Below are positions 2,726-26,858 of a stretch of DNA of 55,490 nt, one piece after another (the stretch's first letter is position 1; every line of letters starts with the position of its first letter). A program made the translations under genes and the position numbers. A model generated the notes under the pieces. It saw only the letters and a program-made list of their open reading frames with translations, was not told where the DNA came from and did not search any database. This DNA is from a virus. The stretch lies in IMG/VR virus record IMGVR_UViG_3300037807_000763, positions 1-55,490 of that record. One strand, 5' to 3'.

Positions 2726-2764
2726 GTTATGTAACCTTTGTATTGTTGATTTAATTGACAATAG

Positions 2765-2793: not shown

Positions 2794-2814
2794 GGACTAT
2801 TTTGCTTTATTTTA

Positions 2815-2853
2815 AAATAAAAACGGTCTGCTAGTATCATGTAGCAGACCGTT
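2815..2853 (-). terminator. Intrinsic terminator
   Basis: A perfect 12-bp stem (AACGGTCTGCTA, 2822-2833, with its complement at 2842-2853) and an 8-base loop, followed on the minus strand by a TTTTTATTTT tract. It ends the operon that includes the repeat protein at 2881-3570 and sits directly before promoter B. Confidence 0.9.
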
Positions 2854-2880
2854 GAATGTAATGGTTAAAAGCGTACTTAA

Positions 2881-3570
2881 CTACATTGTACTTGCACCAC
2901 CCCTTGTTGAACCTCTCATTGAATCTGGATCAAGAGTACGTTTACCCCACGCTGTCTCCACTCTCCCACCAACTTTACATAGTGCACGTACCTCTTCTTC
3001 TGTGACTTTAATAGGTGCGCCTTCGATATAGAAGTGACCCTTAATAACTTTGGGGATCCCTTTTAGTGATTTTAACGATTTACAATCCATTGCAAGGAAA
3101 GAGCCATTAACGATTTTTGGTGCGCCCTCTAAAGATTTAATCTTCGTCTCATTCAATTCAAGATCACCGTTCACTGTTGAGGGTAGTCCCTTAAGTGAAG
3201 TGAGTGGGTTTTCTGAAAGTGATATTCCTTTACCTATCTTCTTGGGGAGCCCCTTTAGATTTTTGATATTGTTACCGCTAACTTCTAGACCACCTTTAAT
3301 TACTGTTTTTTCTATGCCTTTGAATGAAGTTAACATATTCTTGTGTGCATTGAAGTCACCATCAACTACTGACGGTGCGCCCACAAGATCTTTTAGTGCA
3401 TTGTTATTGACCCAGTAATTACCAGTAACATGTGATGGACCATCGGAAGGTAATTTTTTAATCCCACTCCACCATATTTCTTTGTAGTCACCGGAATGTT
3501 TTCCGCCTGCTTCTTCTTTGATGACAGTACGTATTAATTTACGTAAGCCTGTTTCTGTTATTATTTTCAT
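2881..3570 (-). CDS. Leucine-rich-repeat-like protein with a targeting-type N-terminus
   Basis: From about residue 50 to 195 this 229-residue protein repeats a unit of about 20-22 residues with the pattern L-x-G-x-P-x-x-V-x-G-x-F/L-x-x-x-x-N, for example LKGLPKKIGKGISLSENPL. This is a leucine-rich-repeat-like solenoid of the type seen in phage and bacterial surface or binding proteins. The N-terminus, TGLRKLIRTVIKEEAGG, is an amphipathic helix ending in I-x-E, resembling head-protein leader peptides cut by T4 gp21-type proteases and resembling the N-terminus of the gene at 10024-10911. It is the last gene before the terminator. Ligand and location are unknown; packaging into the head is my inference. 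Confidence 0.6.
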   Translation of the reverse strand: MKIITETGLRKLIRTVIKEEAGGKHSGDYKEIWWSGIKKLPSDGPSHVTGNYWVNNNALKDLVGAPSVVDGDFNAHKNMLTSFKGIEKTVIKGGLEVSGNNIKNLKGLPKKIGKGISLSENPLTSLKGLPSTVNGDLELNETKIKSLEGAPKIVNGSFLAMDCKSLKSLKGIPKVIKGHFYIEGAPIKVTEEEVRALCKVGGRVETAWGKRTLDPDSMRGSTRGGASTM

Positions 3571-3617
3571 ATAAATGTACCTTTCCTTATTACTTGTTTG
3601 ATTTGATTATAAATATA

Positions 3618-3791
3618 CTAGTTTTTCGTTAAAATTTGTTTTATATCCCCGGTGGAAATAGTTATAACCTCTTTGGGCTTACCCTCTATGCTAACCCTGA
3701 TATAACCATCAGGAAGTATCTTCTTAACCCTACCAGCCATTGGGTACCTACCAATCCAAAATCCAACTACGTCATCTATCCTACATTCCAT
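3618..3791 (-). CDS. Small conserved-looking protein, 57 residues
   Basis: A complete frame starting ATG at 3791 with an AAGGAA ribosome-binding site just upstream and ending TAG at 3618. The protein starts MECRIDDVVGFWIGR, continues through a GRVKKILPDGYIRVSIEG stretch and is rich in beta-branched residues and glycine, suggesting a small SH3- or KOW-like beta barrel. It fills the gap between the HTH gene and the repeat protein. It is too short for many gene callers. Function unknown; the fold is a guess from the pattern. Confidence 0.7.
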   Translation of the reverse strand: MECRIDDVVGFWIGRYPMAGRVKKILPDGYIRVSIEGKPKEVITISTGDIKQILTKN

Positions 3792-3844
3792 AATTCCTTC
3801 CCTTTGTCTGTTAATAGTTTAAATATTCTATATTATTGTCACAT

Positions 3845-4276
3845 CTAGTAAAAGTCTGGAGGAGCATCTGTATTATCTCTATTATCAGAGTACTCAGGAT
3901 CCCAATCACCCTCAATCGGATCGACCTCCCCCTTCTTAATAGCAACTCCAAGCTTACCAGGGACAAATCCACTCTTCCTGTGTATACCTTCCATGTGACC
4001 CCGATTAAACGTATTGTGCTTTCTCCTCTCAACGAAGTCTCTAACATCCACCATATCAAACCTAACTTGACTATTAACTTCAGGACCTAACTTAACATAA
4101 GTAATCCTACCTTCCCTTCTCCACTTGTCTATAGTCTCTATCGTGACGCCAATGTAATTAGCACATTCCTTCTTAGTAAGTAACCGTATTACATCCACTC
4201 CCCCAGCTGAGATCTTATACCGTTGAAGATCCTTGTGGAATACTAAATCTTTTATCTTCTGTGTCTTGTCAGCCAT
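3845..4276 (-). CDS. MerR/excisionase-type helix-turn-helix protein
   Basis: A 143-residue protein. Residues about 32-85 form a winged-helix/HTH of the MerR-excisionase class: LLTKKECANYIGVTIETIDK is the helix-turn-helix, followed by WRREGRITYVKLG and VDVRDFVERRK, the wing and capping helix. The C-terminal 50 residues are charged and proline/aspartate-rich, probably disordered. The start has an AGAGGA ribosome-binding site. It sits just downstream of two tRNA genes in the VWA-led operon. It likely binds DNA as a small regulator or recombination accessory protein; the target is unknown. Confidence 0.7.
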   Translation of the reverse strand: MADKTQKIKDLVFHKDLQRYKISAGGVDVIRLLTKKECANYIGVTIETIDKWRREGRITYVKLGPEVNSQVRFDMVDVRDFVERRKHNTFNRGHMEGIHRKSGFVPGKLGVAIKKGEVDPIEGDWDPEYSDNRDNTDAPPDFY

Positions 4277-4373
4277 AATTTATCCTCTCTATCCATGCTC
4301 AGTAGGCCATCTTTTTTAACCATAATTTATCTAATTCTCCGGCTAGAGGGCTCCGGCACCAATGCATATATTG

Positions 4374-4444
4374 TGGAGAATTACAGAATCGAACTGTAAT
4401 TTCTGCAGTGCAAGTGCAGTGTAATACCGTTATACTAATTCCCC
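4374..4444 (-). tRNA. tRNA-Ala (UGC)
   Basis: A 71-base cloverleaf on the minus strand. Acceptor GGGGAAT pairs with ATTCTCC and contains the G3-U70 wobble that is the alanine identity element. The anticodon arm is CTGCA, loop CTTGCAC, TGCAG, giving anticodon TGC. The T arm is ACAG-TTCGATT-CTGT. The 3' CCA is not fully encoded. Confidence 0.92.
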
Positions 4445-4454
4445 ATATTTATTG

Positions 4455-4526
4455 TAGCCCATGGGGGGATTGAACCCTCCGACTCCGGATTGAAAGTCCG
4501 ACGTGATACCACTTCACTAATGGGCC
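4455..4526 (-). tRNA. tRNA-Glu (UUC)
   Basis: A 72-base cloverleaf on the minus strand. Acceptor GGCCCAT pairs with ATGGGCT, the anticodon loop is CTTTCAA giving anticodon TTC, and the T arm carries GGTTCAATCC. It lies ten bases upstream of tRNA-Ala, so both probably come from one precursor. The 3' CCA is not fully encoded. Confidence 0.92.
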
Positions 4527-4630
4527 ATTTTTAAATTGTCAAAAAACTTTTAATTTGACACGCGCATGACCAATGTCCAGATATCACCCCATACCAATTC
4601 CCCTTCATGTAATCAAGTATCTCAACATCG

Positions 4631-4831
4631 CTATTTTAGTTCCCACAATGCCCTCAGAAGCAGCTTAGATTTGTTGACGCAAGACCTCAACCATCCACGT
4701 ATGTATACCATTACTACTATGCCTAATAACACAATAAAAGTAGGTACATATACCACTATAGTTAGTACTATTAGGGTTAATATGTTGATTAGCGGGTGAT
4801 ATCGGGGTGTTGGTATTAGTATTGATTTCAT
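4631..4831 (-). CDS. Small membrane protein
   Basis: A 66-residue protein dominated by a hydrophobic stretch (about residues 14-44, including LTLIVLTIVVYV and IVLLGIVVMVYI). This is long enough for one long or two short membrane helices and is followed by a basic tail. It begins six bases after the stop of the zinc-ribbon-like gene, with no clear ribosome-binding site, so coupled translation is likely. Unknown function; holin-like or membrane-modifying roles are possible. A plus-strand frame overlaps it but has no support. Confidence 0.45.
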   Translation of the reverse strand: MKSILIPTPRYHPLINILTLIVLTIVVYVPTFIVLLGIVVMVYIRGWLRSCVNKSKLLLRALWELK

Positions 4832-4837
4832 TTATTA

Positions 4838-5083
4838 TTAAGCTTGTAGCTCTGATGTATTTAGTTCTTGTTCACATTTAGTACATTGGAATACTGGCAT
4901 AGTTATTAGTTGTTCTTGTCCTGTTGGGGATTGTATTGCTGATATACGCTTCATTTTGAATGCTTGTTTGAAGTAACTATTATTACAAGATCTGTCACCT
5001 GCTTTGTTGTCACATGTTATATCTTGTAATGTGTTTGGGTCGATGTTAATTTGTTTTGTACCTGTCATGCTGTTGTCAATCAT
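4838..5083 (-). CDS. Small cysteine-containing protein, possible zinc ribbon
   Basis: An 81-residue protein with cysteines at ITCDN, RSCNN and a C-terminal FQCTKCEQEL (CxxC), suggesting a metal-binding ribbon, although the first pair is spaced irregularly. It starts at an ATG with AGGA nearby, just after the small membrane protein at 5086-5238. No known family recognised. Confidence 0.55.
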   Translation of the reverse strand: MIDNSMTGTKQINIDPNTLQDITCDNKAGDRSCNNSYFKQAFKMKRISAIQSPTGQEQLITMPVFQCTKCEQELNTSELQA

Positions 5084-6206: not shown

Positions 6207-8201
6207 TTATTTCTCCAAGAATTTGTTGTTTAGTACTTTTGCTAAGCTCATTATGCTAGTTGGGTCGATTGTGATTGCGTCCTTACCATACATTTGTTTG
6301 AAGTGCCTTAAGCGGTAATGATTTGCGTCTTCTGCCCTATCAGTAATGAAGAATGAGAGGATTTTGATTCCCGCTTGTTTCATTTTATTAACTTCACTAG
6401 CTGTATGTGAGCGGGCAGAATCACCACCGTATCTCATTGTATTGTTATAATAACTGGGCATTCCGTCTGAGTAATTTAGGAAGTATGCATCACGTCCGTT
6501 TGAGTTGCTTAATACATCTTTCATTATTGATTCAAAGCACAGACCTTCAGGTGTTGTTCCTGTAGCCCGTAAATGCTTCCAGAATTTTTTGATGTGGATT
6601 ATCTTATTGACTTTAGAATCATAAATGATAGCAATAACTGGCTTATGATCATGCATGTGTTCAAGAGTTGTTCGAATTGAAACTTGAACATGAATATTCC
6701 CAACCATTGATGCAGCTTGACAAATTGCTGCGGCTGATTTTATTGCGTTAATAAAAAAGGCACCAGACATAGAACCTGAAGCGTCGATTGAAATATGAAG
6801 ATAAGCTTCATTATATTTCTCTGTAAATGATGTTTTAAAGACCCTATCATTGTCAAAGCCAAGTTCAGCAATTAATCTTCTATCTAATCGTCCAGAATCT
6901 TGTCTTGACCACTTAGTTGTTCGTTCTTCGTTTCGAACTTGAAGCTTTTTACCAAGAACTCTACCAAGTCTTAGCCCATCAAGAATATCTTCTATTTTTG
7001 GACCAGCCCATCTCCAGGTTCTGGAACCTTCGGCATGAATAAAAGAGTATATGGGCTTTGCATTTACAGATTCTGGAATCATTGAGTCTGTGAGCTTTGG
7101 GACAACAACGACATTTGTTGTACCAAAAGATGATTCATCACCCACTTTAACAGTATAAGCTCCAGACTCTTCAGTTGCCTTAAGTGACCCCTGGTCTCTT
7201 TGAGAAAGCTTAGTTTTCTTTTGCTTGTTATTCACAAAGTCCTTTTGTTTGTTCACTGCATTTTGCAATGATTTCTTTTGTGAGGGTGTAAGACTTGGTA
7301 GATCTAAATTCTCTAATTCATTATCTTCACCTTCGTCTTGGCTATTATCTTCACCTTCGTCGTTGGATGATTTGTCTTTTTGTTTGTATTCAGTATCATC
7401 CTCAGATTCTTTTTCGTTATTCTCACTATCAGAAGCTAACAAAGGAAGGATTATATCAAAAATCTCCAAAGCCACGTTGATTGCGTCCCTAGAGGTCTTA
7501 AGCCTTGAGATGTTTTGAAGGTTGATAGTTCTGTAAATGTTCCGTAATTCGGGTAGAGCATTTAAGTCAGTGTTCTTATTTGTAAAGTTAATAATTCTAA
7601 AGAAATAACTTTCCCATGTTACATCACGATACTCATCAGACTTCAAAGCTTTATCAATGATAGAGAAATGGAAGTATTTGTTATACATCGAATGATAGTA
7701 ACCTTTGTATCCTGGAGCATCCTTGAATGTAAGTTGATCAATACGTCTATCTTCAATATAATTGAATAAGTTTTTGATAGATTCTAAAGATTCTCGAAAA
7801 AATCTTCGCCCATTATTTTCATCCATGCATTCTGTCGTATAATGTTCTTGAACGATTTTGTCTAAGTTTGTAATCTCTTCAAAGTCTGTGTGAGCGATAT
7901 GACTACCTTCATGAAGAGCTAACCCAACCATTGGATCAAAGTTCTTATCATTCATACTGGCTGATAATGTAACAGCCTTGCCATCTGTATAAGATTCTGA
8001 ACCTGATGAAAATCTAACAGGTATATCTGTTCGCTTAGTAACGATGTTAACAAAGTTTGAGATAGCACGTCGATAAGCACTCAGGGCGATTAAATCTTTC
8101 CCCTTTTTGACTTCCTGATCTGTTCTCCACCACATGTCACTGGACCCAGTAAGATTTCCTGCCCAGTAATTCGTGTTATGGTTGATTTTAGAAAATTTCA
8201 T
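6207..8201 (-). CDS. VWA-domain protein with N-terminal HExxH metallopeptidase-like domain
   Basis: 664 residues in three parts. Residues 1-250 hold an HExxH motif (LHEGSHIAHTD, 97-107), as in the putative metallopeptidase domain found beside VWA domains (DUF2201 type). Residues 258-300 are a very acidic linker. The C-terminal third is a von Willebrand A domain with a MIDAS motif DASGSMS at 473-479. VWA proteins of this kind, like CobT of cobaltochelatase, pair with MoxR/CobS-type AAA+ ATPases, and such an ATPase is at 1478-2725 under an almost identical promoter. The ATG has AAAGG upstream. The substrate is unknown: metal insertion, complex remodelling and proteolysis are all possible. Confidence 0.85.
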   Translation of the reverse strand: MKFSKINHNTNYWAGNLTGSSDMWWRTDQEVKKGKDLIALSAYRRAISNFVNIVTKRTDIPVRFSSGSESYTDGKAVTLSASMNDKNFDPMVGLALHEGSHIAHTDFEEITNLDKIVQEHYTTECMDENNGRRFFRESLESIKNLFNYIEDRRIDQLTFKDAPGYKGYYHSMYNKYFHFSIIDKALKSDEYRDVTWESYFFRIINFTNKNTDLNALPELRNIYRTINLQNISRLKTSRDAINVALEIFDIILPLLASDSENNEKESEDDTEYKQKDKSSNDEGEDNSQDEGEDNELENLDLPSLTPSQKKSLQNAVNKQKDFVNNKQKKTKLSQRDQGSLKATEESGAYTVKVGDESSFGTTNVVVVPKLTDSMIPESVNAKPIYSFIHAEGSRTWRWAGPKIEDILDGLRLGRVLGKKLQVRNEERTTKWSRQDSGRLDRRLIAELGFDNDRVFKTSFTEKYNEAYLHISIDASGSMSGAFFINAIKSAAAICQAASMVGNIHVQVSIRTTLEHMHDHKPVIAIIYDSKVNKIIHIKKFWKHLRATGTTPEGLCFESIMKDVLSNSNGRDAYFLNYSDGMPSYYNNTMRYGGDSARSHTASEVNKMKQAGIKILSFFITDRAEDANHYRLRHFKQMYGKDAITIDPTSIMSLAKVLNNKFLEK

Positions 8202-8461: not shown

Positions 8462-8959
8462 TTAAATAAATGAATCTAGTGGAATTGGCTTAAAATTAAA
8501 AACGTCAACGCCAACGTCAAATTGATGTGGTAATGTTTTTAATGAACCGTGAGTATGACCACACAAGTTGATTGATCCGTAGTGACTCATATTCCATGTA
8601 GTGAAAGGATAGTGGCACATAACAATCATACCCTCTGGTAGCTTAATTTCGTGATAGTCTTTTATCCACTCGAATTCATTTTGAATCTGCTTATCCTGAA
8701 TCAGCCAGAAGTCGTGGTTGCCTCGTACTAAGTACTTTGTTCCATTAAGTTGTTTTAAAATCTTTAAGTTGGCAGCATTGTCTTTCCAGCCAAAATCGCC
8801 CAGATGGTATACTTCATCATCTTTGTTAACTATGCTATTCCAGTTCTCTATTAATGCAGTATCCATTTCGTCAATAGAGCTAAATGGCCTATTTTGAAAC
8901 TTAATGATATTCTTATGTGTGAAATGTGTATCTGATGTAACGTATGTGTTCTTACTCAA
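8462..8959 (-). CDS. Calcineurin-like metallophosphoesterase
   Basis: A 165-residue metallophosphoesterase with the full set of metal-binding motifs in order: DTH near the N-terminus, GDFGW, GNHD, CHYP and GHTHG. These bind two metal ions and hydrolyse phosphomono- or diesters. The length suits small phage phosphoesterases. It follows the two nucleotidyltransferase genes and the NMNAT-ligase fusion on the same strand, so nucleic-acid end processing (for example removal of a terminal phosphate or cyclic phosphate) is a reasonable inference; a nucleotide or protein substrate cannot be excluded. Confidence 0.88.
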   Translation of the reverse strand: MSKNTYVTSDTHFTHKNIIKFQNRPFSSIDEMDTALIENWNSIVNKDDEVYHLGDFGWKDNAANLKILKQLNGTKYLVRGNHDFWLIQDKQIQNEFEWIKDYHEIKLPEGMIVMCHYPFTTWNMSHYGSINLCGHTHGSLKTLPHQFDVGVDVFNFKPIPLDSFI

Positions 8960-8983: not shown

Positions 8984-10024
8984 TTATTTTAAAAACTTGC
9001 TTACAATCTTCATTGCGTCCAGTGCATTCCTTCGTGTGTCCTTGATCATTTGAGAAGCTTCAGGTGAATTAGCTTTTGCATACTTTGGATTCTTGAGGCT
9101 TGATTGACTCCTCATTCTCTTAGCATACTCTGCTCTAACTTTTGTAATAAAATCTTTAGTGTCCTTAATGTTACTTAATCCTTTATGTCCTAAGACTCCA
9201 TTCGCCTGGAGAGTATTTGCCATACCTTTGATGCCAAGACAAAAGTCTTTAATGCTTACATTGTCTGTATTGATTCCTTTGTGTTTCTTAAGAAGCGGAT
9301 CAATAATAATTTTTTTTATATCAATAGACGGATCGTTGATTTTAATTAAAAATTTAGTTGCGTGTAACATAAACTTTCCAATATCTGTTGAAATTAGTTT
9401 GTAAATGACACCTTTACGTTTGTTTCCAGTAACCAGTATATCGTCTTTGAATCGTGCTAATACCCCTTCTGTACCAAAACTTAATGTTAAAACAGCACCA
9501 AGAGCACTGTATAGATTGCCTATGTTGAAGCCTTTGAATCCGTACTCAGGTTTATATCTACCAGTCATCCACTCTACATAAGGTTTAAACGTCCAAATTA
9601 AGTCGACTTGTGCGAACATATTATTATTTAGATTGAAAATTATAGATTTAGCATTAGTGTGTAATGTATCATTAACTTCAACGTTTTTAACACTCCCTGA
9701 CTTGATGAATTGCTTGAATGCGTCGTTATACTGTCTTCTAATTTTATTTTCTTCTTTTCTAAAATCATCCTTCTGTTCTACAGCAATAGGTATTTCTACC
9801 ATCATGTCAACATCACCATAGATTTTATCAATATTATTGTCTAAATCTTGTTTAACATAGCTTGTTGAGCCCACTGGAATCATCTTACCAATAGGGTCTA
9901 ATTGATTCTGTTTTAGAAACTTATTAAATCTTAATATAAATTTTTCAAATGCTATTATTGATAATTTAGCAACTGCAGGTGTCAACTTAGTACCTTGCGT
10001 TTTAGATGATTCCCAGCCTCCCAC
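8984..10024 (-). CDS. Pol-beta-superfamily nucleotidyltransferase (1)
   Basis: A 346-residue protein with the Pol-beta nucleotidyltransferase signature: PVGSTSY (helix-turn), then IYGDVDMMVEI giving the D-x-D metal pair at about residue 77, and a third acidic residue in FAQVDLIW at about 140. All three catalytic positions appear intact. Family members add nucleotides to RNA, DNA, small molecules or proteins. It starts at a GTG that overlaps the TAG of the preceding nucleotidyltransferase gene by one base, so the two are tightly coupled and may form a pair. The C-terminal 60 residues are basic (KRMRSQSSLKNPKYAK), consistent with nucleic-acid binding. Substrate unknown. Confidence 0.78.
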   Translation of the reverse strand: MGGWESSKTQGTKLTPAVAKLSIIAFEKFILRFNKFLKQNQLDPIGKMIPVGSTSYVKQDLDNNIDKIYGDVDMMVEIPIAVEQKDDFRKEENKIRRQYNDAFKQFIKSGSVKNVEVNDTLHTNAKSIIFNLNNNMFAQVDLIWTFKPYVEWMTGRYKPEYGFKGFNIGNLYSALGAVLTLSFGTEGVLARFKDDILVTGNKRKGVIYKLISTDIGKFMLHATKFLIKINDPSIDIKKIIIDPLLKKHKGINTDNVSIKDFCLGIKGMANTLQANGVLGHKGLSNIKDTKDFITKVRAEYAKRMRSQSSLKNPKYAKANSPEASQMIKDTRRNALDAMKIVSKFLK

Positions 10025-10911
10025 TATTTGATCTCATTTGGAGCTGGAAGTTTGTAACGCTGTAGAGATGTCTTGTAGGCATCAATAATTTTATTATTAA
10101 ATTTTTTGAATAAGAAGTTACTAGACTTCATTAGTTTGTATAGCTTTTCAAATGAGTCTATATCTTTGAAGGTATGATTAGACCCAAATAGAAATTTTGC
10201 AAGCTTATCCATATCACCAATGATTTTTTTAACTTTAAGTTTAACTCGTTTACCTTTTTCATTAGTAGTAAAATCAACTATCTCTACACCATTTTTCCAG
10301 TTCATTTGGAATTTTCTCTTAATATCAGGATCTTTGGTTTTTAGTATGGATTGTGAAAATATGTCTGCTATCAATAAATTGCGATAAACAGCTTTATACT
10401 TACTCCTGTAATCAGCTGCTGATAGAGATTTTTTCATAAATTCTAGATCACCAATCATTACATCAATTTGAACGAACCCAGGTGAGTCTAAGTCATTACC
10501 ATCCTTATCTATTGCAGATAATTGTTTTCCACTTTTATCTATGAGGGGTGTAATGAAATGAGCCTGTTTTAACCCCTTGTTAATTTTATGATCCTTAATT
10601 TTAGTTTTACTGAAGAACTTATCTAACTCTCCCCAGAACTCAGTTGCATCACCTTTAAATTTCATAGTTTTTGCTATAACTGATGCATCTACTGCTATGT
10701 CGATGTCACCCAGGAACGGTTTCTTATAGTTACCAATAATTGTATACTTCAATTTTTTTAACCCTGCATCAACGAGTGATTTTTTAATAGTAGCATCTAA
10801 GTGCTCACTCGGAACTGCAGAGTTCACATCACTAAAAACATTTCCCCCTTCAAGTAACATACGTTTAATCTCTTCTCGTATTAGTTTCCTTAAATTAGTT
10901 TTTGTTAACAT
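10024..10911 (-). CDS. Pol-beta-superfamily nucleotidyltransferase (2) with targeting-type N-terminus
   Basis: About 295 residues. The N-terminus MLTKTNLRKLIREEIKR leads to LLEGG, an amphipathic helix ending in L-x-E, as in head-protein leaders cut by T4 gp21-type proteases. The nucleotidyltransferase core has IIGNYKKPFLGDIDIAVD (D-x-D pair) and FVQIDVMIGD (third acidic residue). The ATG at 10911 has AAGGAG nine bases upstream; a TTG seven codons earlier lies inside that site and is not used. It overlaps the next nucleotidyltransferase gene by one base and follows the NMNAT-ligase gene closely. Function probably linked to both; delivery with the virion is inferred only from the leader. Confidence 0.75.
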   Translation of the reverse strand: MLTKTNLRKLIREEIKRMLLEGGNVFSDVNSAVPSEHLDATIKKSLVDAGLKKLKYTIIGNYKKPFLGDIDIAVDASVIAKTMKFKGDATEFWGELDKFFSKTKIKDHKINKGLKQAHFITPLIDKSGKQLSAIDKDGNDLDSPGFVQIDVMIGDLEFMKKSLSAADYRSKYKAVYRNLLIADIFSQSILKTKDPDIKRKFQMNWKNGVEIVDFTTNEKGKRVKLKVKKIIGDMDKLAKFLFGSNHTFKDIDSFEKLYKLMKSSNFLFKKFNNKIIDAYKTSLQRYKLPAPNEIK

Positions 10912-10924
10912 TTTTGTTATCTCC

Positions 10925-12673
10925 TTAATCAACTGCTCTGTCTAAGAACATTTGAGAAACAATTTCTGGCTCATTACTCTTTAATTTTGCTCTCATATTT
11001 TTAATTCTAGTGATTGTAAGTAAAATAGCTTTTTTTGTATCTTCACGTTTCTTGGGGATTGTTATCATCTCATCACCATCTGCTTTAAATGCTGCTGCGA
11101 TGAGCTTGACCTTTGCCTCGAGTTGAACTAAATATTGTTCAAGTTTCTTCGGATTTAATTTTATACTTTTCCCTAGTTCTTTTTCAGCAATCTGTAAGTC
11201 ATTCATATACTTCCAATTCCGCTCTTTGCGTGCTGTAAACTGTGATTTATCAACTATCTTAACCACATTACCATCCGGTACATATAATACAAGACCTTCG
11301 TCTTCATCACCAAATGCTCTCTGAAAATCAACTTGCAGAACTTTACCTTTCATCTTCTTTCCAATCAAATTGGCTATTCTCTGTATTTGATATTTGATTT
11401 TTTTATGATGAGGCTTTCTTGCTGGTGTGTTTAGTAGGTTACCGTATTTTTCAATTAACTTACTTAATAATATTTCATATTTCTCTTCAAAATGAACTTT
11501 CTTTAAGTTTACCTTTGGATTAGAGTAGAATGTGATAGATGTTTCTGTATTCACAGCTTTAGCAAATACATCGTGGAATGCGATGGGTGTTTCTACTCCA
11601 TCAACTATAATTTTAAACAATACTACAATGCCGTCCCCGATTGTTTCCGGGTTATACAGTACTATATTGTAGTCCCAAGATGGTATCGCTTCACATTCAA
11701 TAGATATGTTTTTAGTGTTTCCCTCAATGCCATATTTCTTTGCGTATTTATCTACTATTTTCTTGTATGGTATTTTCTTTAGTAATTTATGATACCTAAC
11801 AAAATCTTCATAGAAGTACAATGATGGGTATTCTTTTTCGCTTTTAACAGTTTTAGTCTTTGATCCAGAGTAGAATCGTCCGCCCTTAATTCCAAATTGA
11901 AAAAAGTGACCATCCACCTTTTCATTGACTTCAAATTTTGTATTATCTTCATTCCATAGCTTTAAAAACACAAGCAGATCTTTAGGCTTGAGATCCTCTA
12001 TGTGTTTGATACCCTCAGACAAAATTCCTTCTGTGATATTGAATTTTCTCTTAAAGATACTGTAAATAGATGTATTAATTTTTCCATATAATGACTTAAA
12101 AGTATCTTGAGGATTGTCGCCTTTAAAAGCTTTTCGTACTTCAGTGCCACTAATAGTAATACCATTAATTTTCACCTGAAGCTGCGGAACTGAAATTACA
12201 TACCCTTTTGTATCGAAACTTTCCATATCAGCACCCGTGTATGTTTCATAGTACTTACCAAGTAATCTACTAACATCTTCTTTCTCTCCAAGACCAACTA
12301 CTAATGCAGTAGTTTTCTCATCGAATAAAGCTTTTATCTCAACAGGATTATATGGGATTCTTACTTGAATTATGTTAGTCTTCGGAATCTTAAACATCTT
12401 AGAAATTATTGCTTGTTTTTCGTTAAAGTCAAATGGAGATTTGTCGCCTGTCTTGTTTGAAGTGGCTATATAAACGTTCTTCTTTCCGAATTTCTTAACT
12501 AAGAATTTGTATGAATGATGATGTCCGCGATGGTAAGGCTGAAACCGACCAGAATAGATAGCAATTGTTTTTGTAACTTTAGTATCTTCTAGTAACTCTG
12601 TTTTTAATTTGTCCACTACACCTTTCCAGCTTCTAATATCTGTTTCTTTTAGTAAATGTTGAATGTTTGTCAT
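10925..12673 (-). CDS. Fusion of NMN-adenylyltransferase-like and polynucleotide-ligase-like domains
   Basis: 582 residues. Residues about 35-185 are a nucleotidylyltransferase of the NadM/NadR/NMNAT type: SGRFQPYHRGHHHSY holds the GRFQPxHxGH active site and ISGTEVRKAF is the C-terminal ISxTxxR motif. Residues about 240-490 are a covalent nucleotidyltransferase (ligase/capping superfamily): motif I EKVDG with lysine 252, motif III ISIECEAI (324-331), motif IV DEDEGLVLYV (456-465) and motif V VKIVDKSQF (471-479). The first domain would make NAD from NMN and ATP; the second would seal DNA or RNA ends. The C-terminal 90 residues are helical and basic. No domain arrangement like this is familiar to me. 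It heads the nucleotidyltransferase and phosphoesterase cassette. Confidence 0.82.
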   Translation of the reverse strand: MTNIQHLLKETDIRSWKGVVDKLKTELLEDTKVTKTIAIYSGRFQPYHRGHHHSYKFLVKKFGKKNVYIATSNKTGDKSPFDFNEKQAIISKMFKIPKTNIIQVRIPYNPVEIKALFDEKTTALVVGLGEKEDVSRLLGKYYETYTGADMESFDTKGYVISVPQLQVKINGITISGTEVRKAFKGDNPQDTFKSLYGKINTSIYSIFKRKFNITEGILSEGIKHIEDLKPKDLLVFLKLWNEDNTKFEVNEKVDGHFFQFGIKGGRFYSGSKTKTVKSEKEYPSLYFYEDFVRYHKLLKKIPYKKIVDKYAKKYGIEGNTKNISIECEAIPSWDYNIVLYNPETIGDGIVVLFKIIVDGVETPIAFHDVFAKAVNTETSITFYSNPKVNLKKVHFEEKYEILLSKLIEKYGNLLNTPARKPHHKKIKYQIQRIANLIGKKMKGKVLQVDFQRAFGDEDEGLVLYVPDGNVVKIVDKSQFTARKERNWKYMNDLQIAEKELGKSIKLNPKKLEQYLVQLEAKVKLIAAAFKADGDEMITIPKKREDTKKAILLTITRIKNMRAKLKSNEPEIVSQMFLDRAVD

Positions 12674-14814: not shown

Positions 14815-15990
14815 TTATTCTTTAATAAATATATTATCATTTTGGTTTTCTTGGAGTTTTAAAATCTCTATATTAAAGTTCCCAAGTTTGAACTTACCTG
14901 TCTCACCACTATCGTTAAATATCCACGGGAATTTTGCTATCATATCACCGTCTTGCTGTGTAAGTTGTTTTAAATCGAACTCAACGATAATATCATTTTT
15001 ACATTTCTTTTTATACGATTCTCCGCCATAGCATTTGTTACTTAGATCTATCAATGTATTTTGCTGTTCTCTGTCAATGTAGTCCAAGACAACAAATTCA
15101 TTATCAATAAAAATATTAGAACACCAAGGTTCTAACATGTGCAGATGTTCAATATTACAATTGTGAACTACAAAGCCTATGTTATATATGGGTGCAACTA
15201 TTGGATTCAACGTCGAGTTATGTAGAACCTCTGTACCCCACTTTCTGATAAAATTCCTTACGTTCTTAGAGTTAGTCGCTTTCCACTCAGGACTATCCTT
15301 TCCTGTGTCACCACCTGAAAGTTTGTTATATCTACTTCCCCTGCTGGTAAAGTGGTAAACTAGTGCATCCCAGGATTGAATAATCTCATATCCATTTAGT
15401 TTAAATCTATTAAACAAGTCTGAATCTTCTCTTGACTGAGGTGCGAATAATTTATCATGGCCTCCAATTGATAGAAAATCTTCTCTATACATACACCAGG
15501 GAGCAAAAATACCATCAGTTACTTTTTCATTTTCAAATGATGTATTATTCTCAATCCACTTGCTCATCTCAAATGTCTTTACTTCACTACCAAAGTCATG
15601 AATTATTTTTTCAGGACCCGGAGGATGAAGAGGTGGTTCTATTCTTGTTCCAGAAACTACGATTCCTTTCCTGAGATGTTTCAAGATGTTAATATCAAAG
15701 TTATTCCCAGCAACCATATCAGCATGAAAAGCACATATAATTTTTGTTGTTGCCAACTCAATGCCTTTATCAAACATTCCTACTATACCAATCCTTTCAG
15801 GCCCAGGATTTGTATGAATTATTAATTTATCATCTTTTAGATTTTCTAACCATTTGCTAGTATCATCCGTACTTGCGTCATCTAAAATCAAGATCTCATG
15901 ATTTCCTGACAAATTCCTTATTGAATGGTATGCAAGCTCTAAAAATTCTAAGTTGTTTCTTGTTGGTATTACGAATGTAATTTGTTTCAT
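14815..15990 (-). CDS. Family 2 glycosyltransferase
   Basis: About 391 residues. The N-terminal GT-A fold shows TFVIPTRNNLEFLELAYHS, the nucleotide-sugar binding LDDASTDDT and an acidic metal-site variant FHADMV near residue 100. The later GGHDKLFAPQSREDSDLFNR segment is typical of GT2 acceptor-side loops. The true start is the ATG at 15990, which overlaps the TGA of the upstream methyltransferase by four bases (ATGA); the longer frame to 16017 is inside that gene. The C-terminal 140 residues are not recognised. It probably adds a sugar to a phage or host glycan; donor unknown. Confidence 0.85.
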   Translation of the reverse strand: MKQITFVIPTRNNLEFLELAYHSIRNLSGNHEILILDDASTDDTSKWLENLKDDKLIIHTNPGPERIGIVGMFDKGIELATTKIICAFHADMVAGNNFDINILKHLRKGIVVSGTRIEPPLHPPGPEKIIHDFGSEVKTFEMSKWIENNTSFENEKVTDGIFAPWCMYREDFLSIGGHDKLFAPQSREDSDLFNRFKLNGYEIIQSWDALVYHFTSRGSRYNKLSGGDTGKDSPEWKATNSKNVRNFIRKWGTEVLHNSTLNPIVAPIYNIGFVVHNCNIEHLHMLEPWCSNIFIDNEFVVLDYIDREQQNTLIDLSNKCYGGESYKKKCKNDIIVEFDLKQLTQQDGDMIAKFPWIFNDSGETGKFKLGNFNIEILKLQENQNDNIFIKE

Positions 15991-16643
15991 TTCTGTATAA
16001 CACCGACCATAATCCATGACTGGCTTAAATCAGCAGTTAGCGTTGACCCCCATTGTTTGTCAATTCCCGGCATGTTAAACGTCTGGAGAGGCACCTCAAT
16101 TATTCCGAACCCAGTTATGTCGCAGTCTTTAAAATTTCTGAATAATATTTCTGTAAATTCTTTTGGGTCGTATTCATATAGATGTGTTCCCCCATTGTAA
16201 GTCCATGTTGGTGTTTTCCTCTTGGGGGTAGTAATAACAAGAGTTTCAGATGTAACACTACTTATAGATTGTAGATATTGATCGATTCTATCTGGGGGTA
16301 GATGTTCAAATGTTTCTATTGAAACACAAACTTCAAATTGGTCTTTATTAAACTTACTACTTAAGTCGAAAATATCACATACTTCAAACTTGCACTTATC
16401 TGACTCAAATCTTTTATTCGAGTTAGTAATTGCGTCTTTGTCTAAATCTATTCCTATAACGCTAGTTGAGCCAAGAGATTGCAAAATTCCTGCGCCGTAG
16501 CCATATCCAGTCGCAGCATCCAACACAGTCTTTTCCTTGGTCCAATGTGATGCAAGCACATATCGATCTATCATTGTTGATACTGCAGGATACATAAATC
16601 TGTCAATCTTTGTTATGTGTGTATTATCTGTTTTTTTAACCAT
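15987..16643 (-). CDS. Class I SAM-dependent methyltransferase
   Basis: 218 residues of the class I methyltransferase fold: motif I VLDAATGYGYGAG, then VIGIDLDKDAI (acidic end of strand 2), CDIFDL and SIETFEHLPPDRI (post-motif region, as in UbiE/COQ5-like enzymes). The substrate is likely a small molecule or sugar, because it sits between glycosyltransferases and overlaps the next one by four bases. DNA methylation is unlikely, as there is no DPPY-type motif. Confidence 0.85.
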   Translation of the reverse strand: MVKKTDNTHITKIDRFMYPAVSTMIDRYVLASHWTKEKTVLDAATGYGYGAGILQSLGSTSVIGIDLDKDAITNSNKRFESDKCKFEVCDIFDLSSKFNKDQFEVCVSIETFEHLPPDRIDQYLQSISSVTSETLVITTPKRKTPTWTYNGGTHLYEYDPKEFTEILFRNFKDCDITGFGIIEVPLQTFNMPGIDKQWGSTLTADLSQSWIMVGVIQK

Positions 16644-16700
16644 TATTATTCCAGTTTTTTATTTTTTAAGTAACATGTAGTATTGCTATAAGTAATGTCA

Positions 16701-17678
16701 TCAATACTCATCTTTAACGACCTCTAAAAACTTTTTTTGACTAAACTCTTCTTTAAACACCCTTTTTGCTGTTTGGCTACACTTTATGTAAAACTCTTTG
16801 TCTTCTTTTAATTTTCTTGCTAATTGTATTGCTGACTGAATATCATACGTCTGAACAGATAATTCTGGATAGCATAATCTTTGTGTGTCAGCTTTTATCT
16901 CACCGATACAAGGAATTCCGTAGTAAGCACAATTTAAGCTAAAACTTGCTGATGCAGATGTGCCCGGAAGATTTACTGCGTATTTGTAAGATTGCAAATT
17001 TTGTATCCAAGTTTTCCAGTCAACATATTCTAAATAATTAACTCCAAATGCAGGAGCAGTCTCCCAAGAATCTTTGGGCATTCTAGACTTGCCCATTGGA
17101 GGAATATAAATGCCACAATCAAATTCCTTTGCGATGATTGTTTGTTGAAGACCGTTATACTCACGAGTAAAGGGTCCTGAGATTATTGCCTTGTTTTCTT
17201 GTTTAAGATTTTTCTTCTCTTGCGGAAGCATGATGCTCCTTACTACAGATACTGGTATATTTTTGAACATTCCTTTATAATAATTGACATCTGATAAATT
17301 AGGACAAAGAATCTTGTCACATGCTGAAACATTGTTATACCACCAAATTTGTAAAACTGTGTCATGTTGATTCCAATACCCTACTTCTCCGTCTTGATAA
17401 AATAAAACTTTTCCAGAAAACTTCTTCTTAATTTCTTGAATAGCATTAAAGTGCGTTTTTACTAACCAGTGAATTATCTGTTTTTCCATATCACCTTTAG
17501 GGAGAGCTACGACAACATTTCCTTCGTATGTTGTGTCTTCTGTTAGAACCTTGTCAATTGGAAGAGCAAATGCATCCCATGTGTATATTTGGGTCTCAAG
17601 TACTCTCATGTGGGGATGTTCATTTACTAAAAATTTTCCAGTCATTCCTTGTTCTGAAATACAATAGTCTATTTTCAT
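16701..17678 (-). CDS. GT-B-like glycosyltransferase, divergent
   Basis: 325 residues, probably a GT-B glycosyltransferase. The C-terminal part has a GTSASASFSLNCAYYGIPCIG segment, similar to the donor-binding site that grips the nucleotide, followed by a C-terminal helix pair (ARKLKEDKEFYIKCSQTAKR) typical of GT4-like enzymes. It overlaps the WbqC-family gene by four bases. No exact family can be named. Confidence 0.6.
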   Translation of the reverse strand: MKIDYCISEQGMTGKFLVNEHPHMRVLETQIYTWDAFALPIDKVLTEDTTYEGNVVVALPKGDMEKQIIHWLVKTHFNAIQEIKKKFSGKVLFYQDGEVGYWNQHDTVLQIWWYNNVSACDKILCPNLSDVNYYKGMFKNIPVSVVRSIMLPQEKKNLKQENKAIISGPFTREYNGLQQTIIAKEFDCGIYIPPMGKSRMPKDSWETAPAFGVNYLEYVDWKTWIQNLQSYKYAVNLPGTSASASFSLNCAYYGIPCIGEIKADTQRLCYPELSVQTYDIQSAIQLARKLKEDKEFYIKCSQTAKRVFKEEFSQKKFLEVVKDEY

Positions 17679-18244
17679 AAGTTAGCCAGTGTTGTGTATA
17701 AATTGGGTACATTGGGTTCAAAAAATGAAACATCAATTCCTTCAAAGTAACTAAGGTCTAAATAGTCTCGTCCTGATGGGCCGCTAATGTATTCTTTCGC
17801 ATTTAATTCTTTGCAAATGTTCCCTAGTAACTCTGACTTAGAGCCCTCTGCAGATAGCGTAGCAGCGCGGATGATAGGTGTATCGACTCCCAGTCTACCA
17901 GCACAATATACAATACTTCTGATGTTGATGTCTGCTAATAGTTCTGTCTCATACACATGTGTTAAGTCTAATTTGAAGTTATAAGAAAGTTTTTTTAGTA
18001 TTTTAGTTCGCCAGTTTGTTTCAGATGGTTTAACATCTTTGATTTGCTTCTTGACAGCGTCTTTCGGGACAGGTATTGTAAACCATTCTTCAACACCTTG
18101 TGAATTTTTAAATCTATTCCTATTCTGAAAATAATTCTTTCTAAAATTAACATTATCAAGGATCACAATAATATCAGCTTTGTTCATTTTTTGAAAGAAT
18201 CCCAAATATGGGAAATGTTCTGGTTGGTGGATTGTAACTTTCAT
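17675..18244 (-). CDS. WbqC-family protein
   Basis: 189 residues matching the WbqC family, found in O-antigen and sugar-modification clusters. It has the characteristic start TIHQPEHFPYLGFFQKM, then ADIIVILDNVNF and NRNRFKNSQG. The biochemical activity of the family is poorly defined; some members act in amino-sugar biosynthesis. GGAG lies eight bases before the ATG. It sits between the glycosyltransferase and the PIG-L deacetylase-like gene, with a 23-bp palindrome in the upstream gap. Confidence 0.82.
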   Translation of the reverse strand: MKVTIHQPEHFPYLGFFQKMNKADIIVILDNVNFRKNYFQNRNRFKNSQGVEEWFTIPVPKDAVKKQIKDVKPSETNWRTKILKKLSYNFKLDLTHVYETELLADINIRSIVYCAGRLGVDTPIIRAATLSAEGSKSELLGNICKELNAKEYISGPSGRDYLDLSYFEGIDVSFFEPNVPNLYTTLANL

Positions 18245-18270
18245 TATTTAGTCTCCATGCTATAAATCAT

Positions 18271-18293
18271 TAATAGAACATAATGTTCTATTA
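18271..18293. promoter_or_regulatory. 23-bp palindrome, possible operator
   Basis: Two perfect 11-bp arms (TAATAGAACAT and ATGTTCTATTA) around a single central base, in the 77-base gap between the PIG-L-like and WbqC genes. There is no U-tract, so a dimeric protein binding site fits better than a terminator. Confidence 0.45.
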
Positions 18294-18321
18294 ACTTTGC
18301 CTGTATTATTGTGTATGCTAA

Positions 18322-18957
18322 TTAAAGCCATTTTAGTATCCTGTAGACGTCATAATGTTCGTAATCATTATGAACAAAGTTTTCCATTTGATATGTCTTT
18401 CCGATGTTATAGTGTTCTTCACTCTGTAAATAGTAGCCAAGTTTTGTATATGATTGTTCTGCTTGAATGTTATACTTGTTACACATTTTTACTTTAATGT
18501 CCCAAGCATCTTTATCAAGTGGTATCCAATAATTAGTCTTAAATTTTGAAGAACTTGGTGAGTAAATAGTTATAAATTTGTTTGTGTACTTATACATTCC
18601 CATTGCAATCATATTAATAGCAAGATGATCAGTATGACAGTCTTTGTCATCGTGAGTAAGAATGTCAAACCTTTGATCAAAGTTAATAATTCCGTAAAAC
18701 TTATCTTTTAGATCATCAAGATTTGTTTGCAACTTCCTTTGTGGAAACTTTAAGTTAATATAGTTAAATTCTTTATTTTTGAGGTGTGAAGACATTAAGT
18801 CAATATTGCCTCTCCAGATTTTATCTTTTCTTTCCCAATCTGATGCTATTATCAAGTTGATATTATCATAGTCATTTGCATGTTTATTGATATATCCCCA
18901 GCAAGACAATTCAATATCATCAATATGTGCTACTAAAACATAAAGATCTTTCTTCAT
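18322..18957 (-). CDS. PIG-L/LmbE-family deacetylase
   Basis: 211 residues of the zinc-dependent PIG-L family, which removes N-acetyl groups from amino sugars. The zinc motif AHIDDIEL near the N-terminus and the CHTDHLAI motif in the middle supply the conserved His and Asp ligands. The length is normal. It overlaps the HAD phosphatase gene by four bases. In this glycan island it probably deacetylates an N-acetylhexosamine intermediate or nucleotide sugar. Confidence 0.85.
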   Translation of the reverse strand: MKKDLYVLVAHIDDIELSCWGYINKHANDYDNINLIIASDWERKDKIWRGNIDLMSSHLKNKEFNYINLKFPQRKLQTNLDDLKDKFYGIINFDQRFDILTHDDKDCHTDHLAINMIAMGMYKYTNKFITIYSPSSSKFKTNYWIPLDKDAWDIKVKMCNKYNIQAEQSYTKLGYYLQSEEHYNIGKTYQMENFVHNDYEHYDVYRILKWL

Positions 18958-19355
18958 TTTAAAATTCCTACGTTTTCTAAATTAGCAAGTGCTCTATCCC
19001 AATCAGTAAATCTAATTCCTTTGTCGTCTATGTAGCAAACTGCTCTGGGTTTTTCTGAAGTAACTAGCTTTACGTATTTGTCCATTTGATATTTTTCCAA
19101 CCACTCCCAAACAAGCACTGTACCTGTCTTACCATTAACGAGACCTCTATCAGGCTTAGCTTTTGCTGTAAAAATTATAATGTCATATTGCTCTGATAAC
19201 AGTTTTAAAGATTCGAATGATCCCTCAACGGGCTCATCATAAATTGTACCATCATAGTAGCCCTTTGAGCACTTGTGAATTACACCATCAAAGTCTATTG
19301 CTAGATTTGTTAATTCATCTTGAAAACTATTTTCTCTTATGTCTTTATCTGCCAT
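18954..19355 (-). CDS. HAD-superfamily phosphatase
   Basis: A 133-residue HAD hydrolase without a large cap: motif I AIDFDGVIH, motif II FTAK and motif IV CYIDDKGIRF. It removes phosphate from small metabolites, probably a sugar phosphate. It follows the SIS isomerase gene with a TAATG junction, the same order of functions as GmhA then GmhB in heptose synthesis, although it is shorter than classical GmhB. Confidence 0.8.
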   Translation of the reverse strand: MADKDIRENSFQDELTNLAIDFDGVIHKCSKGYYDGTIYDEPVEGSFESLKLLSEQYDIIIFTAKAKPDRGLVNGKTGTVLVWEWLEKYQMDKYVKLVTSEKPRAVCYIDDKGIRFTDWDRALANLENVGILK

Positions 19356-19888
19356 TATTGTCTCGTTTTAAGTTTTGGGATTGTGTATCCTGCTTCCTCA
19401 TAAAGTCTGTACATCAACATGATAATTAAAATTTCGTATTTGTAATAGTGTGATGTATTTATATCTATAGTATTCTTTGCTGGCTTACCTTCAAAATTTC
19501 CAGTAATTAAAAAATTATCAATATTATGATTACTTGCCCATTTGAGGGCTTCATTTACATCTGGGGAATTACCTGATGCTGAAAAGCCGATTACAAGTGC
19601 AAAATGGTTTTTGTGGTCCTTAATTTGTGATGTCAGCCAATCTGATAACCATGTTTTGTAGTCGTAGTCGCCATGCCATATTGCTACAGTATCTGAGTCA
19701 GGTGATAGGAACTTTTTATCATTGTTCATTAAGCGCATTAGATCTGTGCCGAGGTGTCGGGTGATTGCTGTATTACCTCCGTGACTACACAAATAAATCT
19801 CTGTTGATAGTGAAAACTTCTCACTCAAGTCTTTCCAAGCCTTAGTATCTACTAGTGTGTTGTACCTCCACTCTAAATTTGTATACAT
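19355..19888 (-). CDS. SIS-domain sugar isomerase (GmhA-like)
   Basis: 177 residues of the SIS fold, closest in pattern to GmhA, which converts sedoheptulose 7-phosphate to heptose 7-phosphate. Visible sites: CSHGGNTAITRHLGTDL, which binds phosphate and contains the family Asn, and GFSASGNSPDVNEAL, the second phosphate-binding loop. Typical GmhA has about 190 residues. It is coupled to a HAD phosphatase and an epimerase, consistent with a heptose-type sugar pathway. Confidence 0.82.
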   Translation of the reverse strand: MYTNLEWRYNTLVDTKAWKDLSEKFSLSTEIYLCSHGGNTAITRHLGTDLMRLMNNDKKFLSPDSDTVAIWHGDYDYKTWLSDWLTSQIKDHKNHFALVIGFSASGNSPDVNEALKWASNHNIDNFLITGNFEGKPAKNTIDINTSHYYKYEILIIMLMYRLYEEAGYTIPKLKTRQ

Positions 19889-20766
19889 TATTTATCCTCT
19901 AGTATTTCAAGCAATGCATCATTGAGCTCTCTATTAGTATTCTTAGTCAACTTGAAAACACGATCTTTTGTGTATGTATAAGGACAAACTTTGTAATGTG
20001 ATTCTGTCCTGCCTTCTGTAATATTTGTTTTAAAATTAATCTTTAAGTCTCCTCCCATTAGTTCCCTTATAATATTAAACAGATCACTAGTTCTCGTCTT
20101 GTAAGAACCTGTTATTGCTAGGGTTTTGTTATCCTGACTACTTCTTATTGCTGCTAAGCTTAAGTCTGCCGCATCCTCAACATGGATATATTCTCTAATT
20201 TCAGTTCCGTCCCCTGTATAATTTATCTGATTGCTATCAAGTGCCTCTGTTAGGAATTTTTCAATGCTATTTGTTTCTGGCGCGCCGAGACCATAGATTG
20301 TGCCAAAACGAAGTAGAGAATATTTTAAATTAAAAAAGTTATGAAAGTCTTTAATGATCATTTCACACGTCTTCTTTGTAGATGAATAAAATCCTCCATG
20401 ATTTCCACCTGCGTACATACTACTAGCAAAAATAAATTTTGCAATTCTTTTTTCAACACATACTTGTAATAACTTGGTCGTTCCCAATACATTATATGTT
20501 ACACATTTGACTGGATCTAGAAGACACTCATCAATATCAGATATGCCTGCTAAGTGAAAGACAATATCACCTTTACTAATTGATCTATTAAGTACCCCCT
20601 TGTCAAGTATTGAACCAACTATTGACTCAATGTTCTCATTATTTTCTAATGGTGGGGTGACATCAATAACCTTCACAAAGTAACCAAGCTTTACAGCTGC
20701 AGCAGCTATATAACTGCCCAAGAATCCATTCCCGCCTGTAATAATTATAGTTTGTTTTTTATGCAT
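19888..20766 (-). CDS. NAD-dependent epimerase/dehydratase
   Basis: About 292 residues of the extended SDR family that acts on nucleotide sugars. NAD site TGGNGFLGS at the N-terminus, the FHLAGISDID strand and a catalytic region with serines at FASSMYAGG and a YSLLRFGTIYG segment. I did not see a standard YxxxK; the nearest tyrosine-lysine is in GGFYSSTKKTCE, which fits YxxxK as YSSTK. The ATG at 20766 overlaps the upstream dehydrogenase by eight bases; the 21-residue extension lies inside that gene. Confidence 0.82.
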   Translation of the reverse strand: MHKKQTIIITGGNGFLGSYIAAAAVKLGYFVKVIDVTPPLENNENIESIVGSILDKGVLNRSISKGDIVFHLAGISDIDECLLDPVKCVTYNVLGTTKLLQVCVEKRIAKFIFASSMYAGGNHGGFYSSTKKTCEMIIKDFHNFFNLKYSLLRFGTIYGLGAPETNSIEKFLTEALDSNQINYTGDGTEIREYIHVEDAADLSLAAIRSSQDNKTLAITGSYKTRTSDLFNIIRELMGGDLKINFKTNITEGRTESHYKVCPYTYTKDRVFKLTKNTNRELNDALLEILEDK

Positions 20767-21604
20767 TTTGAATATTTTTAATTGCTTCAGTTTCCATTTT
20801 GTGTCTTGCTTTTTTTGTATAGCTACCAATATGGGGTGTCATGATTACATTTTTGAGAATTGATAATCCAGAATTCCAATCATAGGGCTCATTTTCAAAT
20901 ACATCTAAAGCAGCAATTGCATTATTATTTTGCACAAGCCACTTGTACAAGTCCTTCTCATTAAAGATTTCACCCCTTGATGTGTTGACTAGAATTACGT
21001 CTTCTTTCATTTGAGAAAAATCAGATTTTTCAATTTGTTTGCTAAGCTTGGGAACATGGAATGTGATTATATCAGACTCTCTATAGATCTCTTCTAAAGT
21101 AGTTGTGTCTTCTATCTCGATGTCGTTTACAAGTACTCCCTTTGGTGAGAAAGACTTTAAATGTTTTTCTACTTTTTTCCCAATCCTGCCGTACCCGACG
21201 ATTCCAATGACACATTCACTTAGCTCTCTACCTAAGGACTTTTTCCAAATTTTTTGATTATGAAGCCTCAAAGCTGATAATATAAATGCAATTGTCAACT
21301 CTGCAACTGCATTTGTGGGTGCATCAGGTGTATTATAGACTTTGATATTTCTTTTTTTACACTCCTGAAGATTGATTGATGATACACCAATACCAACTCT
21401 GGAAATTAATTTTAAGTTACTACATAAATCAAGTTCCTGTTTTCCATAATTTTCTGTGCCTGCTATTATTATTTCTGGGTTTACTTTTTTTAGAAGCGAA
21501 AGAATCTCTCGCTGTGTATACTTCATCTTTTTTGTGTTATATGTTACATTATTAAACCCATCAACAGGCACAGTAAAAGGGTGTGTAGTTACCAATACTT
21601 TCAT
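20759..21604 (-). CDS. D-isomer 2-hydroxyacid dehydrogenase (SerA-like)
   Basis: 281 residues of the D-2-hydroxyacid dehydrogenase family, which oxidises or reduces 2-hydroxy/2-keto acids with NAD(P). NAD site GIVGYGRIGKKV, then LVNTSRGEIFNEKDL, the catalytic arginine region SRVGIGVSS, ENEP and the catalytic histidine in TPHIGS. It lies between a NeuA-like cytidylyltransferase gene and an epimerase gene, so it probably makes or uses a 2-keto acid sugar precursor. The specific substrate is unknown. Confidence 0.85.
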   Translation of the reverse strand: MKVLVTTHPFTVPVDGFNNVTYNTKKMKYTQREILSLLKKVNPEIIIAGTENYGKQELDLCSNLKLISRVGIGVSSINLQECKKRNIKVYNTPDAPTNAVAELTIAFILSALRLHNQKIWKKSLGRELSECVIGIVGYGRIGKKVEKHLKSFSPKGVLVNDIEIEDTTTLEEIYRESDIITFHVPKLSKQIEKSDFSQMKEDVILVNTSRGEIFNEKDLYKWLVQNNNAIAALDVFENEPYDWNSGLSILKNVIMTPHIGSYTKKARHKMETEAIKNIQNA

Positions 21605-25937: not shown

Positions 25938-25939
25938 TT

Positions 25940-26857: not shown

Positions 26858-26858
26858 C

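Follow-up and report, generated by a model that had tools for sequence, protein, structure and literature searches.

An NMNAT-like domain fused to an Rnl2-like ligase domain in marine T4-like phages: a possible head-packaged end-repair module

A single viral open reading frame (ORF) joins a HIGH-superfamily domain resembling NMN adenylyltransferases (NMNATs) to a domain with the motifs of a covalent ligase, which raises the question of what two such enzymes would do for a phage in one chain. The ORF lies in the IMG/VR virus record IMGVR_UViG_3300037807_000763, of which a stretch of 55,490 nucleotides (the window) was analyzed in full. This fragment carries T4-type replication genes (DNA polymerase, DnaB-like helicase, UvsX, SSB, and ribonucleotide reductase), and the fusion ORF is present once in the record, without an internal stop. 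Its parts and the adjoining genes are as follows, with a slash marking candidate cleavage positions.

10925–12673, minus strand (read 12673→10925): fusion ORF, 582 aa, ATG start, open throughout
12584–12673, minus strand: N-terminal leader, aa 1–30, MTNIQHLLKE/T...ELLE/D, two L-x-E sites, capsid-targeting-like; pLDDT 54–60
12059–12568, minus strand: HIGH-superfamily (NMNAT-like) nucleotidyltransferase domain, aa 36–205; PF01467, PHROG 395, Foldseek NadD/NadM/PPAT
12011–12058, minus strand: inter-domain linker, aa 206–221; two prohead-protease-like sites, ITE215/G and LSE220/G
11243–12010, minus strand: Rnl2-like covalent nucleotidyltransferase (ligase) domain, aa 222–477, by motif residues and Foldseek
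10925–11242, minus strand: C-terminal helical region, aa 478–582; long helices in the AlphaFold2 model, pLDDT mostly 80–98
10024–10932, minus strand: Pol-beta-fold nucleotidyltransferase gene overlapping the fusion; GN...GDID...QxD; D76, D78, D157; 28-aa leader ending LLE/GG
8984–10024, minus strand: second Pol-beta-like nucleotidyltransferase gene; motif VGS...YGDVDMMV...QVDL; overlapping stop/start
8462–8959, minus strand: calcineurin-like phosphoesterase; Pfam PF12850 (9e-9), PHROG 547 (8e-55)

An NMNAT-like HIGH domain and a covalent ligase-type domain are thus encoded in one intact polypeptide, as an earlier note on this DNA had claimed; the ORF, its motifs, Pfam and PHROG matches, conserved homologues (including a full-length one, 82% identical, on other contigs), and Foldseek all agree. 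The note had also taken the combination to be new, and no description of a HIGH–ligase fusion was found in the open literature searched, although an earlier mention in the RNA-repair survey of Burroughs and Aravind is possible. Structure prediction of both domains, which the note had proposed as a check, gave an AlphaFold2 model of moderate quality (mean pLDDT 77, pTM 0.46; low confidence at aa 251–256 and 448–458), in which Foldseek matched the first half to NadD, NadM, and PPAT in the PDB and to cytidyltransferase-like proteins among viral models, and the second half to T4 RNA ligase 2 (Rnl2; 2hvq at 2.7e-4, 2hvr, and 1s68) and to Rnl2/REL RNA ligases from several viruses. On these matches, the C-terminal part has a nucleotidyltransferase fold.

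The HIGH motifs are GRFQPYHRGH (aa 42–51) and ISGTEVR (aa 174–180), and Gly42, Phe44, Pro46, His51, Gly176, Thr177, and Arg180 are invariant across 18 relatives. When the fusion was compared with Pfam and PHROGs, the HIGH half alone was recognized, exceeding the gathering score of CTP_transf_like (PF01467, E = 2e-5) and matching the cytidyltransferase family PHROG 395 (E = 5e-12); the ligase half had no match. The curated NCBIfam equivalog and subfamily cut-offs for NMNAT were missed by this half (25.6 of 127, 25.0 of 181, and 23.9 of 418 bits). Inspection by eye shows no evident N-x-x-W NMN-binding motif of the NadM type in these HIGH domains, and conserved NPYxPVEI and GxKDxxR sequences there instead. 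Because the NadM models are the nearest and yet the scores fall far under their cut-offs, NMN is only a likely substrate; the domain is most likely an independent, NMNAT-like small-molecule adenylyltransferase. It shares GRFQPxHxGH and SGTxxR with the phage NatV/NadM-Nudix and NadR-kinase proteins, but differs from them in having a ligase partner in place of a Nudix or kinase domain, in the usual absence of NadV from the same records, and in falling below the NMNAT cut-offs.

In the ligase domain, motif I contains Lys252 (EKVDG), motif III Glu328 (ECE), motif IV Glu459 (EGLVL), and motif V Lys472 (VKIVDK). These residues are invariant in four members of the window subfamily (alignment A9; 39–86% identity to the window protein), in keeping with the assignment in the earlier note of Lys252 as the candidate nucleophile. 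The motif residues are likewise invariant inside each ligase subfamily examined, which argues for activity. DNA ligases are absent from the top 50 PDB and top 50 viral Foldseek matches of the fusion model. At the sequence level, a profile of the larger EKxDG subfamily (A6) scored 28.3 against T4 Rnl2, where 60 shuffles gave no more than 21.6 and ten other T4 proteins no more than 19.6; in the alignment, the two agree in the placement of motif I, of the AAR/CAKR stretch, and of motifs III/IIIa. The window subfamily, for which alignments are thin, gave no direct sequence match to Rnl2; its profile links to A6 (7e-5). PF09414 (RNA_ligase) matched fusion ligases in three records at 15.5–18 bits against a cut-off of 27 and did not match the window protein, and a direct sequence search of the PDB with the ligase half returned nothing useful. 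A match of one ligase relative to a CCA enzyme (0.069) was taken as chance. We therefore describe the domain as probably Rnl2-like, on fold and motif order, without filing it in the Rnl2 family, whose PF09414 cut-off it misses. The order of motifs I, III, IV, and V is that of T4 Rnl2 (gp24.1), from which the fusion ligase differs by the long helical segment that separates motif III from motif IV, by its union with a HIGH and sometimes a Pol-beta domain, and by a head-cluster location in relatives.

A collection of 80 viral loci (numbered L001 onward) was reduced to 29 non-redundant proteins, ranked by similarity to the HIGH half except for members of the window type. At least 28 of the 29 carry a HIGH domain together with a ligase motif, a figure that includes two motifs overlooked by the automatic count and seen on reading (FEKVDG in L015, QEKTDG in L062) and that is somewhat biased because the ligase motif was one of two search patterns. 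Three ligase subfamilies are joined to the HIGH domain, with the motifs EKxDG, KIDG (A7), and KWDG (DUF6267), mostly in the order HIGH–ligase and sometimes reversed. In 8 of the 29 representatives (among them L015, L029, L044, L094, L026, L065, and L070), the chain also includes a Pol-beta domain homologous to the product of the gene that follows the fusion in the window; L015 and L094 carry HIGH, ligase, and Pol-beta in a single chain in the order of the window genes, with a different HIGH domain (GGFKPFTAGH) at the equivalent place in L094. The L029 three-domain alignment (A10) was left out, MAFFT having set Pol-beta rows onto the ligase. L065 also has a HAD domain (PHROG 415, polynucleotide kinase), and in L001 the homologous HAD is encoded immediately upstream of the fusion by a gene of its own, which also has a leader; neither HAD nor Pol-beta is a constant partner among the relatives. 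A search of viral contigs with the L009 protein found no relatives. A bacterial or archaeal origin was considered and rejected on the strongest of four hits from a genome scan, L117, which is a phage contig with the fusion, terL, and portal that has been binned in a euryarchaeal MAG. A small domain (GDTVxxGKFKNKxxxxKxIxxDDxGxPTINGRxAxxFR) recurs at L001 11365–11673 and inside L117, L035, and L122, scattered in marine phage polyproteins.

The gene that overlaps the fusion has G-[NST]...DxD and a third Asp on a Pol-beta fold, with invariant catalytic Asp residues and a confident model (pLDDT 88, the leader being the only long low-confidence stretch). An RlaP identity is not claimed for it, as there was no Pfam match. 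The second Pol-beta-like gene, identified from its sequence motif alone, adjoins the fusion in L001 as well (62% identity). The calcineurin-like phosphoesterase, which has a weak match to the ligase-associated DNA-damage nuclease PdeM, is a possible fourth member of the operon; its membership is uncertain because it is absent beside the fusion in L001. Elsewhere in the window are two thymidylate synthase genes on the one 55-kb contig (453–1085 and 38076–39032; PHROG 85 thymidylate synthase, Pfam Thy1), an AAA ATPase (1478–2761, porphyrin-biosynthesis PHROG) and a VWA-like protein (6207–8201, cobalamin-biosynthesis PHROG) that may form a chelatase-like or MoxR/VWA pair, and, at 14815–29650, several glycosyltransferase-like and methyltransferase genes, with a sialyltransferase-like GT29 match at 24542–25420.

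The genomic setting in relatives suggests a link to the phage head. Among the non-redundant loci with enough flanking sequence, terL lies less than 4 kb downstream on the same strand in 15 of 18 (the median distance for the whole set being 1.3 kb), and in L094 the portal gene directly follows the fusion; in the window, a fragment, neither a terL nor a portal match nor any head gene was seen. Peptidase_S77, the gp21-like prohead protease, is encoded in 17 of the 18 records of relatives, one of them the contig that carries the closest relative (G016), the window being a fragment. T4 gp21 cleaves after L/I-X-E (PMC9026906), and sites of this kind occur in the window protein both in the leader (HLLKE/T and ELLE/D, aa 1–31) and in the linker (ITE/G and LSE/G). 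Of the 27 ligase junctions in non-redundant relatives, 20 have an h-x-E/G/A/S/D site before the ligase, compared with 8% of background windows, and a similar site precedes the Pol-beta domain in 6 of 6, with the reservation that in both sets the sequences are related and not independent, which makes the p-values optimistic. Six of the seven ligase junctions without the site read LLLM, LLLC, or LLVC before GG; these substitutions for LLxE/GG (in L040, L045, L047, L055, L068, and L077) are unexplained if the Glu marks a protease site. The leader of the sister fusion in L001, MSKLATQLIQELLED, can be set beside the N-terminus of T4 gp24, MAKINELLRE/S, and at about aa 60 the capsid proteins of fusion-bearing phages carry a site of the type QL[ILV]xE/[AS]. 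By a loose pattern, 13 of 19 ORFs in L001 have a leader-like N-terminus. Upstream of the fusion in that locus (578–4841), no fewer than eight short ORFs, seemingly unrelated to one another, start MIKLKDLLxE or MKITKTQLRE(L/M)IREEL, an apparent nest of capsid-targeted proteins; in the window, an LRR-looking repeat protein (2881–3570) has a leader, MKIITETGLRKLIRTVIKEE/AGG, that resembles capsid-targeting leaders, and it too is possibly packaged. The T4 internal and ejected head proteins (Alt, IPs) offer a close parallel, with a short leader ending L/I-x-E, and the relatives share with them head-cluster genes and an encoded gp21-type protease. Polyvalent proteins are likewise multi-domain and predicted to be packaged (PMC5512222), and neither a ligase nor a HIGH domain is named as their cargo in the passages of that survey consulted. 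The present putative cargo differs from both in consisting of end-repair-like enzymes.

A related pair of genes is widespread in cyanophages. The DUF6267 ligase-like domain occurs in 469 phage records, nearly all from Synechococcus or Prochlorococcus phages, with additional pelagiphages and Methylophilales phages; in P-HM2 and S-SZBM1, the DUF6267 gene directly precedes a cytidyltransferase gene, whose N-terminus in S-SZBM1 reads MRFRQFIIE/A. PHROG 455, of unknown function, spans both the ligase-like and HIGH domains. This pair, T4-GC71 (DUF6267, PHROG 455) and T4-GC190 (cytidyltransferase, NMNAT-like), resembles the window protein in setting a ligase-like gene with KWDG...GD...EGY...VKLVDR directly before a HIGH gene, whereas the window has one fused chain, the reversed order, and another ligase subfamily. 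The window ligase and DUF6267 are linked through profile–profile comparison only (2.9e-4 and 8.7e-4), PF19782 (DUF6267) having no match to the window protein, and DUF6267 is not mentioned in the open literature searched. Two further observations concern this pair. In S-PM2 AJ630128 (L121 3947–5726), the DUF6267 gene is broken and its end joined to the cytidyltransferase, whereas DUF6267 matches in one piece in S-PM2 LN828717, so that the break may reflect either a mistake in sequencing or a genuine difference between strains. In the Pelagibacter phage HTVC008M (L122, 5673–6335), a P-loop kinase-like gene with the leader MIPFILKE/G lies between the DUF6267 and HIGH genes, and could be the end kinase of such a kit. 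NMNAT-like or cytidylyltransferase proteins have been reported in virions of S-CBWM1, S-SZBM1, S-SCSM1, and S-CREM2, with a caution from the authors about carry-over (PMC10665884, PMC9602691). In the S-CREM2 virion table, the cytidylyltransferase has three peptides, and no listed neighboring protein fits the DUF6267 partner of ∼400 aa.

We propose that the fusion belongs to a capsid-packaged, protease-processed end-repair module comprising an ATP-using Rnl2-like ligase, a Pol-beta enzyme, and an independently acting NMNAT-like domain, a reading to which we assign a probability of about one half. The fusion would be a version of a widespread marine-phage module and would be made late; its leader would target it into the prohead, where the gp21-type protease would cleave after L/I-x-E, both to detach the leader and to part the two domains, and the processed parts would be ejected with the phage DNA. 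The ligase would then self-adenylylate on Lys252 with ATP and seal broken nucleic-acid ends, most likely of RNA such as tRNA cleaved by host defense nucleases, in partnership with the Pol-beta nucleotidyltransferase encoded next to it and, in the case of relatives, with an end-phosphatase of the HAD type. Instead of recharging the ligase, the HIGH domain would most likely serve to increase NAD+ in the cell just infected. Among the options raised in the earlier note, an ATP-dependent RNA ligase with a separately acting HIGH domain fits best. We hold more tentatively the general form of this proposal, in which the heads of marine T4-like phages would carry a polyprotein and the prohead protease would release from it an NMNAT-like enzyme, a ligase resembling Rnl2, a Pol-beta nucleotidyltransferase, and, in some phages, a HAD phosphatase; these would form an end-repair kit acting at DNA entry, with DUF6267, the family known from several hundred cyanophages, as its ligase.

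The Rnl2 fold favors RNA as the ligase substrate, while the Pol-beta match and the presumed virion location would allow DNA. The same enzymes might be delivered in the capsid to mend the phage genome as it enters, where light or nucleases have left it nicked or gapped, with the Rnl2-like ligase, a Pol-beta polymerase, and the end-phosphatase acting together. Some large eukaryotic DNA viruses have repair enzymes of this kind (Pol X, ligase). DNA polymerase beta accounts for every significant PDB match of the Pol-beta partner, and this result, the kinship of the HAD domain with PNK phosphatase, the weak PdeM match, and the head-cluster location in relatives are all in line with DNA repair; the TM-scores to Pol-beta are, however, only ∼0.4, at superfamily level, and the ligase resembles RNA ligase 2, DNA ligases being absent from its top 50 PDB and top 50 viral matches; we regard this capsid-delivered DNA-repair reading as fairly unlikely.

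If instead the HIGH domain alone mattered, it would restore NAD+ against a NAD-depleting defense, and the ligase-like domain would be a co-packaged passenger whose activity is unrelated or lost. Intact HIGH motifs and the reported cyanophage virion proteins accord with this reading, and the HIGH domain may in itself restore NAD+. However, phage NadM reportedly always occurs together with NadV (PMC9503650), which is missing from 13 of 14 fusion-bearing records (most of the 14 are fragments, but the two phage records of 190 and 484 kb also lack it), so that NMN would need a host source; the invariance of the ligase motif residues in each subfamily also argues against an idle passenger, and we consider this explanation quite doubtful.

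Less probable still is a role in RNA-end modification, in which the pair would cap or tag RNA with the nucleotide product of the HIGH domain instead of repairing breaks. Such a role could account for two or three nucleotidyltransferase folds per polypeptide, and the HIGH substrate is not fixed by its motifs, with GxKDxxR and NPYxPVEI (by eye) where the NadM NMN-binding motif is expected, yet partners of the HAD-phosphatase and Pol-beta kinds are characteristic of end-repair systems.

The self-recharging NAD+-dependent ligase entertained in the earlier note, in which NMN released by the ligase would be remade into NAD+ by the fused NMNAT using ATP, would suit two domains that are nearly always in one chain or adjacent genes and a HIGH domain closest to NadM/NadD, but is highly improbable because the LigA adenylation domain (PF01653) occurs in 0 of 14 fusion-bearing records, compared with 11 of 14 control genomes, and does not match the window protein, because the fold is that of Rnl2, an ATP-dependent ligase family, and not of LigA, because the prohead-protease-like sites would part the two domains, and because the pair is encoded by separate genes in cyanophages.

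Should the proposed head-packaged end-repair module be correct, it would provide a function for DUF6267/T4-GC71, annotated as hypothetical in more than 460 phage records, nearly all of them cyanophages and relatives, and would explain the recurrence of NMNAT-like proteins in cyanophage virions. Nucleic-acid end repair would then join the roles of proteins that phages inject into their hosts.
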